A stretch of 64,000 nt of DNA, from positions 4,898,001 to 4,962,000 of the forward strand of contig NC_063017.1 of the NCBI RefSeq assembly GCF_020509005.1, read 5' to 3'. Shown here piece after piece: positions 24,301 through 25,367 of the stretch. The notes under the pieces are model-generated. The model did not search any database, was not told the origin of the DNA, and worked only from the letters and a program-made list of their open reading frames with translations. Position 1 is the first letter of the stretch. Every line of letters starts with the position of its first letter. The position numbers were made by a program, and so were the translations under genes. This DNA is from Fulvia fulva. Lineage: Eukaryota > Ascomycota > Dothideomycetes > Mycosphaerellales > Mycosphaerellaceae.

Positions 24301-24313
24301 AAAAGAAAAGAAG
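24301..24313 (-). terminator. Probable Pol III terminator for tRNA-His
   Basis: On the minus strand this reads CTTCTTTTCTTTT, two runs of four T starting about 25 nt after the tRNA 3' end. RNA polymerase III stops at such T runs. No longer T run lies closer to the gene. Confidence 0.55.
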
Positions 24314-24336: not shown

Positions 24337-24491
24337 TGACCACACCCTGGATCGAACAGGGGACCTCCTCGGAGGCTGTAACAACGGATGTATGTTCCGT
24401 TCCACAACGAGACGTCTGTACACACGTTAGGGCGGATTGTTTGTGAGGTTTTGATCAGATGCACTCACGATAACCACTACACTACGTGATC
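24337..24491 (-). tRNA. tRNA-His (anticodon GUG) with two introns
   Basis: Minus-strand segments 24491-24469, 24415-24402 and 24372-24337 join to a 73-nt tRNA. Acceptor stem GATCACG/TGTGGTC (five Watson-Crick and two G.U pairs), D stem GTG/CAC, anticodon stem TCTCG/CGAGG, loop TTGTGGC with GUG at 34-36, T arm CCCTG-TTCGATC-CAGGG and discriminator A all fit. The loop TTGTGGC matches yeast and human tRNA-His as I recall them. Internal promoter boxes are intact: A box TAGTGTAGTGG and B box GTTCGATCC. Intron 2 (24373-24401, 29 nt) sits at the canonical 37/38 site. Intron 1 (24416-24468, 53 nt) lies between positions 23 and 24 in the D stem and looks spliceosomal. If intron 1 is kept, the D stem is weak (one Watson-Crick pair and two G.U pairs) and the D and anticodon arms are pushed apart. 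Whether the gene is functional or a pseudogene is not decided by sequence. Confidence 0.85.
24416..24468 (-). other. Spliceosomal-type intron inside the tRNA-His D arm
   Basis: On the minus strand the 53 nt begin GTGAGT, contain CCCTAACG 14 nt before the branch-to-acceptor end, and finish GTACAG. Length, donor, branch motif and spacing equal those of protein-gene introns in this window (for example 49-54 nt in the sugar transporter). Its removal restores the D stem CAC opposite GTG and the usual GGTTATCACG sequence. An internal GTGAG/CTCAC pairing is also possible. No bulge-helix-bulge recognised by tRNA endonuclease could be drawn at its borders. Confidence 0.75.
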
Positions 24492-25367
24492 GTTTTGTAT
24501 GAAGTCCATGGAGCTTAGTTAAACATATAGTCTAAATAGCGAGGCCCAGCCGGGTTACAATCGAAGTAGCGAGATGGAACAGCCGGTGAGGTGTGAAAGG
24601 CGGGCGGGGAGCTTGACGATGACACAGAATTCAGCTTTAGTGGGGTGCAGAGCTTTTTCGGGCTGAAGAGATCGGTCCGAAGATCGGCTTTTGAGGTTCT
24701 TCTATACCGGAAATTGGTCTGGGTTGGGACATATTGTATGGCGTGGCTATGAAGCTGTGTACAGTGGCTTTCACGGCTTTGAGGCGGCCAAAGCGCGTTG
24801 GTTATCGAACGTAGAAGAAGTCTTCAGTCTCAGCGAGGCGGCCTGACCACTGGGCGGAAGGTCCGAAGTTCAGGGATATATTCGCGGATGCATGCTATGG
24901 CCAATGTCGCACGCCGCAATGGATACGTTGATGTCGCTGGTGGGTGACCGGAGATCCGTCCACGACGACGACGACAACGGCGATGTATGAGCATTCATTC
25001 TATTTGCTGTAATGCGGCGTTCCGCCTTCCAACCAGCTGTCCCGTCTGTCGTCCAAATGACCAGCAGTCTGCATAATCTGACCAGTACCGCAACGAGGGT
25101 ATCAAGATGGCCGGCGACCCAGTGATCACAGTCGCGGCAATCGTATGCTTAGCAACGAAGCTTTGCGGAACGCTGTATTGATCGGTACAACGCGCTGATC
25201 GCGCATGATGTCCGGCTGCTATGTGTGGTGTGCAGCGATAACGTTACATCCGGCTCCAAGCTCTGTACGAGATGGCTCATATCTTTGATATGATTCTAGG
25301 CAGCGACGCAAGACCAGAAATCGGTCAGATGCCATCGATGTTGCGGATTTTGGCTTCCGACCGCTGT
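24492..25367. other. Intergenic, no gene seen
   Basis: 876 bp upstream of tRNA-His and downstream of the mitochondrial-protein gene. Only short frames occur. A small GAC repeat (about 24963-24976) is present. No TATA-like element obviously positioned for the tRNA is seen. Confidence 0.45.

Follow-up and report, generated by a model that had tools for sequence, protein, structure and literature searches.

Analysis of a 64,000-nucleotide stretch of the Fulvia fulva genome (contig NC_063017.1, positions 4,898,001 to 4,962,000; hereafter the window), together with a survey of the genome (67,169,167 bases, 14 contigs), showed that a histidine tRNA gene in the window is one of at least 22 tRNA genes interrupted by introns of the spliceosomal type; each resolved gene carries between one and five of them, 42 in total, and since the survey was partial, both numbers are lower bounds. 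An earlier note on the window alone had described a single tRNA-His gene with a spliceosomal-looking intron in the D arm; that observation is real, and the finding is unexpected and broader than the note could see. The sequences make it very probable that these are working nuclear RNA polymerase III genes that were invaded by U2-type introns, which the spliceosome would remove while the tRNA endonuclease takes the canonical intron. With more reserve, we lean toward a wider view: that most tRNA genes of this fungus may depend on the spliceosome, that translation may draw directly on it via polymerase III precursors that contain as many as five mRNA-type introns and exons of which some measure only 4 to 10 nt, and that reverse splicing may place introns in tRNA by preference.

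Histidine tRNA genes

The window tRNA-His(GUG) gene, read directly from the sequence, occupies 155 nt on the minus strand (24337 to 24491) and consists of three exons and two introns. Exon 1 (24469..24491) holds mature positions 1 to 23, exon 2 (24402..24415) positions 24 to 37, including the anticodon GTG (also called by ARAGORN), and exon 3 (24337..24372) positions 38 to 73. Exons 2 and 3 are separated by a canonical 29-nt tRNA intron at 37/38 (24373..24401; ARAGORN i(38,29)), and exons 1 and 2 by a spliceosomal-type intron of 53 nt in the D arm (23/24; 24416..24468), which reads GTGAGT...CCCTAAC...GTACAG and holds the branch-site motif CTAAC at 24426..24430, the A lying 12 nt from the intron end by inclusive count. 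When the sequence was reread, the earlier note's coordinates for the three pieces and the two introns proved exact. Removal of both introns leaves a 73-nt cloverleaf, as the note had claimed, with the loop TTGTGGC and the anticodon GTG; 20 of 21 stem positions pair, G-T included, and the unpaired one is a T-T at 13:22. ARAGORN called no tRNA when given the whole window, and none when given the genomic form of the gene with introns allowed; given the gene minus the 53 nt, it called tRNA-His(gtg) with a 29-nt intron.

Both internal promoter boxes are unbroken in this gene (A box TAGTGTAGTGG, 24474..24484; B box GTTCGATCC, 24349..24357; minus strand, as are the flanking elements). A TATA-like stretch (TATTTA, TATAT; 24525..24538) lies 34 to 47 nt upstream, and downstream there is an oligo-T stretch (TTTTCTTTT, 24301..24309), a putative polymerase III terminator that contains no T5 and is weaker than those of most other resolved genes. 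Our solver, which cuts out GT..AG introns with a branch motif and then requires a cloverleaf, returned this gene as the sole match on both strands of the window, allowing up to two and then up to three introns. A chance origin was rejected, as the solver gave no match on one strand of random sequence (Markov-1, 68.1 Mb); an Rfam assignment of the locus was likewise rejected, the only match being a sub-threshold one to mir-75.

A second tRNA-His gene (L002; C6:3535206) is interrupted by three GT-AG introns, which follow positions 4, 23, and 50, and by a 23-nt canonical intron, and its spliced product is identical to that of the window gene at 73 of 73 nt. The D-arm intron at position 23 is present in both tRNA-His genes found. 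The earlier note had asked whether other, intact tRNA-His genes exist; no contiguous one was found with the joined 73-nt query, an A-box pattern, a contiguous D arm plus GTG loop pattern, or the Rfam matches, a search bound to the known tRNA-His body and made one by one for His only. The joined query matched only the 36-nt exon of the window gene and missed L002, which means that short exons escape such a query. The A-box pattern TAGTNTAGTGGTTA occurred three times, twice in the two tRNA-His genes; the contiguous pattern, with one mismatch, gave one site, which is not a tRNA; and a His anticodon was in none of the readable Rfam tRNA matches (28 at E<=10). A candidate intact tRNA-His at C3:5432174 was rejected, as no tRNA was visible there by eye.

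Interrupted tRNA genes across the genome

The survey entered the genome through the Rfam tRNA model, the A-box pattern, and B-box patterns. The Rfam model gave at least 22 matches at E<=0.001 and at least 28 at E<=10 among the 63 of 1234 candidates scored. The B-box patterns gave 27 sites and then 36, the 27 included; these comprised 15 interrupted tRNA genes, 7 tRNA genes free of spliceosomal introns, 6 repeat-borne tRNA-like copies, 3 sites that were not solved (L038, L050, L078), and 5 (L046, L047, L048, L077, L079) in which neither the solver nor inspection by eye found a tRNA. The resolved interrupted genes are those for His (two), Val-TAC (one), Thr-AGT (three), Thr-TGT (one), Asp-GTC (four), Lys-CTT (one), Leu-AAG (two), Leu-CAA (one), Leu-CAG (one), Gly-GCC (four), Pro-CGG (one), and Gln-TTG (one). 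Ten have a single spliceosomal-type intron, six have two, five have three, and one has five; a further insert of 8 to 65 nt lies at 37/38 in 19 of the 22.

The script solved 18 of the 22 genes. For Leu-CAA, its second solution, with a Leu anticodon and a long variable arm, was taken; Pro, Gln, and Leu-CAG were worked out by eye before the script or ARAGORN was used to check them. Lys-CTT has one anticodon-stem mismatch, and another pairing is possible. After splicing, the resolved genes show a cloverleaf with the conserved bases, and ARAGORN recognized a tRNA in all 22 spliced forms, with the right anticodon in 21. From the genomic forms, with introns allowed, it called a tRNA in 3 of 22 and the right anticodon in one (Asp-1); standard tRNA finders would miss part of the tRNA set. 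ARAGORN still called a tRNA in 496 of 1075 constructs with wrongly shifted cuts, and this tolerance means that it is no test of exact boundaries.

The survey also came across fifteen tRNA genes free of such introns: Cys, Tyr, Val-AAC, Ser, Arg, four Ala, Gly-GCC, Gly-TCC, Leu-TAA, Thr-CGT, Pro-TGG, and one read as Ile. The tRNA L021 (C10:3362228) has a 63-nt insert at 37/38, and its anticodon was read as GAT; as tRNA-Ile(GAT) would be unusual for a nuclear gene, the reading may be wrong. The counts leave out L024, L050, L078, L038 (a Gly-TCC-like piece), and L035 (C6:1252016), a probable further tRNA with an odd variable region and a probable T-loop intron (GTAAGC..AGTAAC..CACAG). The usual initiator-Met anticodon arm, GGGCYCATAACCC, has no occurrence in the whole genome; the initiator tRNA may be divergent or interrupted too. 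The common D arm GCTCAGTTGGTNGAGC was found with at most one mismatch at only three sites in the whole genome, none of them resolved as a tRNA. We also noted six near-identical tRNA-Trp-like stretches (L015 to L020, at C1:10675274, C2:4010719, C5:4745140, C9:2445509, C12:312588, and C4:5392158; ARAGORN: cca, 41-nt intron), which adjoin a reading frame that looks by eye like that of a Ty3/gypsy retrotransposon; five copies agree with L016 at 2750 to 2775 of 3115 positions.

Splice signals, transcription, and selection

All 42 introns are GT-AG introns of 49 to 63 nt (median, 53), with the qualification that 30 of them were found by search or reading aimed at GT-AG. Their length is in line with that of protein-intron candidates in the window (46 to 63 nt, branch distances of 12 to 36), a small sample in which 6 of 14 donors were kept for their branch motif and some are doubtful. 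Donor position 5 is G in 40 of 42, the acceptor is CAG in 27, TAG in 10, and AAG in 5, and a YTRAY branch motif is present in 41 (CTAAC in 22, CTGAC in 7, CTAAT in 5, CTGAT in 3, TTAAC in 2, TTAAT in 2) and absent from 1. These signals were partly selected by the solver, so the branch distance and the inserts defined by paralogues are the weightier tests. The branch A lies 11 to 13 nt from the intron end, a distance that the solver did not demand, in 40 of 42 tRNA introns compared with 48 of 287 window candidates (45 to 65 nt, same filter). For all 12 inserts that paralogue comparison defines, the boundaries can be drawn as an exact GT..AG, and for 7 of them no other choice exists; four are in the Gly genes compared with the 3' part of the intact L012, two in His-2 compared with His-1, one in Thr-1 compared with Thr-2, and five among Asp-2, -3, and -4. 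The structures of the genes and their splice signals stand on firm ground; the best reading of the sequences is that the introns are U2-type spliceosomal introns, for which removal as lariats is predicted.

The flanks of the genes carry signals of the polymerase III type. Runs of at least four T's occur within 65 nt downstream in all 22 genes, compared with 3 of 22 in the 65 nt upstream and 10 of 22 at 80 to 145 nt downstream; for runs of at least five, the corresponding figures are 19, 0, and 4, with both His genes and Thr-1 having only a T4 within the 65 nt. TATA-type words are present at -80 to -28 in 18 of 22 genes and in a control stretch in 1 of 22. Within the 42 introns, runs of five or more T's were absent (0 seen, 2.4 expected; fraction, 0.085) and runs of four or more were scarce (3 seen, 8.7 expected; 0.014); A runs of four or more were also scarce (2 versus 5.8; 0.048), and the depletion of T runs is weak. 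Introns break the A box in 10 genes and the B box in 3, leaving 12 of 22 with at least one broken box, a state that should impair a classical type 2 promoter. Fission yeast tRNA genes have an upstream TATA, and by analogy, the upstream TATA may make up for the interrupted boxes here. In Thr-1, the mini-exon GCTCAGAG, read by eye with the AG and GT on either side of it, comes close to restoring an A box. As for other polymerase III genes, 5S rRNA gave at least 18 matches at E<=0.001 (47 of 3102 candidates scored), all full length and contiguous, and the sole U6 match among those scored (47 of 3200) was contiguous; no invasion was therefore seen there, though interrupted copies are harder to find.

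The earlier note had offered a polymerase II precursor as an alternative, and the same signals bear on it. The tRNAs could be cut from capped polymerase II transcripts, the introns being ordinary ones of noncoding host genes; spliceosomal introns do, as is established, normally occur in polymerase II transcripts, and the A or B box is broken in 12 of 22 genes. The T5 runs that follow 19 of 22 genes and precede none, the TATA-type words in 18, and the lack of any T5 in the 42 introns all speak against this, as does the first exon of seven genes, which consists of only 4 to 10 nt of tRNA. Given the TATA and oligo-T signals, we regard a polymerase II origin as improbable and prefer transcription by polymerase III.

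The spliced products of paralogues are identical: the two His (73/73 nt), Thr-1 and -2 (72/72), Asp-2, -3, and -4 (72/72), and the four Gly (71/71), whose product is also that of the intact L012. Introns at homologous positions share an inner identity of 49 to 74%, compared with shuffled means of 46 to 51%, and the 60-nt flanks of identical-product pairs have mostly diverged (34 to 47 positions identical upstream and 34 to 43 downstream, counts without a shuffled control). The exception is the similar downstream flank of Gly-1 and Gly-3 (52 of 56 aligned), so exon identity says less for that pair. Gene conversion would have had to spare introns lying just a few nucleotides off, which is hard to imagine, so selection acting on the spliced tRNA would be the simplest account, and the interrupted genes are probably alive. 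That they are instead dead, intron-hit pseudogenes, with unseen intact genes making the tRNAs, appears very unlikely: one intact Gly(GCC) gene does stand alongside four interrupted ones, and the survey was partial, with intact copies sought for His only, but paralogous exons have stayed identical over 71 to 73 nt while their introns diverged, no intact tRNA-His was found, and the T-run and TATA flanks have been kept. As for cleavage of the ectopic introns by the tRNA endonuclease at bulge-helix-bulge structures, as in archaea and red algae, with an accidental GT-AG look, ectopic and multiple tRNA introns do exist in archaea and some eukaryotes (PMC4090602, in the part available) and the central 4-bp helix is complete slightly more often than expected by chance (3 of 42 versus 0.83, at the GT/AG cut only), but we rejected this scarcely credible reading because that helix is incomplete in 39 of 42 at the same cut, GT-AG also fits all 12 paralogue-defined inserts (though the solver demanded it elsewhere), and the branch spacing is 11 to 13 nt in 40 of 42.

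In the course of events that we infer for working genes, RNA polymerase III would transcribe from upstream TATA elements and internal boxes and end at oligo-T, yielding precursors with one to five U2-type spliceosomal introns plus, in 19 of 22, an anticodon-loop intron. The spliceosome would join the exons, internal ones as short as 5 and 8 nt, and this joining would let the cloverleaf form; RNase P and tRNase Z would then finish, with the tRNA endonuclease and a ligase handling the 37/38 intron. The introns would be old gains, for which reverse splicing or insertion of introns into abundant tRNA is the easiest explanation. Of the earlier note's readings, the best supported is the one in which the tRNA requires the spliceosome as well as the tRNA-splicing machinery, now with L002 (three introns, same product) and 20 further genes behind it.

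Intron gain and known systems

The 42 junctions are distributed over the A box (11), the D arm to position 28 (9), the 5' T stem (7), the variable region (5), the 3' T stem (5), the B box (3), and the acceptor (2). Not one falls at mature positions 29 to 44, the anticodon stem-loop, while the other parts of the tRNA are freely interrupted; a proto-splice AG|G bias at the insertion sites was looked for and not seen. In the Asp paralogues L037 and L062, the first introns lie in the A box 1 nt apart (after 11 versus after 10), which may be an instance of intron sliding. An all-against-all comparison of the 42 introns gave three pairs at E<=0.01, of which two lie at homologous sites and the third spans 15 nt, and no copies of tRNA introns were found elsewhere in the part of the genome examined. 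The introns thus form no family among themselves, and a recent introner burst was rejected for want of near-identical copies; of the introner idea in the earlier note, the invasion stands and the repeat family does not. Reverse splicing has been proposed for U6 introns (PMC10484740, available part), and by analogy, old gains by reverse splicing into tRNA would fit our data. With 42 introns per 1615 nt of mature tRNA (22 genes), the set is a dense record of intron gain that could be used to test reverse splicing, and its extreme mini-exons could serve for studying intron definition.

By the accepted view, distinct machineries process tRNA introns and mRNA introns. In F. fulva both kinds lie in the same genes, which would tie the tRNA supply to the spliceosome. 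The titles and abstract openings listed by our searches of the open-licence literature held no report of spliceosomal introns in tRNA genes, and our reading would place such introns in a polymerase III transcript class in which the literature searched describes none. In the available parts of the sources, a 2026 paper sets tRNA splicing by specialized protein enzymes against the spliceosome (PMC13149111), frequent interruption is described as known from just two small structured RNAs, U3 and U6 (PMC5832005), and the word tRNA is absent from the main text of the introner paper (PMC4457414) and of two C. fulvum genome papers.

Several known systems resemble the one described here in part, as far as the available portions of the cited papers go. 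Canonical nuclear introns at 37/38 are cut by endonuclease and ligase (PMC13149111); 19 of our 22 genes also carry such an insert, of 8 to 65 nt, whereas the 42 introns lie elsewhere and resemble mRNA introns. Introns outside 37/38, several per tRNA gene, are likewise found in archaea, Cyanidioschyzon, and nucleomorphs (PMC4090602); those of archaea and Cyanidioschyzon form bulge-helix-bulge structures for the tRNA endonuclease, whereas those of F. fulva have mRNA-type splice sites and branch motifs, with an incomplete central helix in 39 of 42. The introner-like elements of F. fulva (PMC4457414) are a case of spliceosomal intron gain in the same organism, but near-identical copies were not seen among the 42 tRNA introns. 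U2-type introns also occur in other small structured RNAs, the U6 snRNA of fission yeast and other fungi, itself a polymerase III transcript, and the U3 snoRNA (PMC10484740, PMC5832005); here the host is tRNA, in at least 22 genes with up to five introns each, and the U6 match is contiguous.
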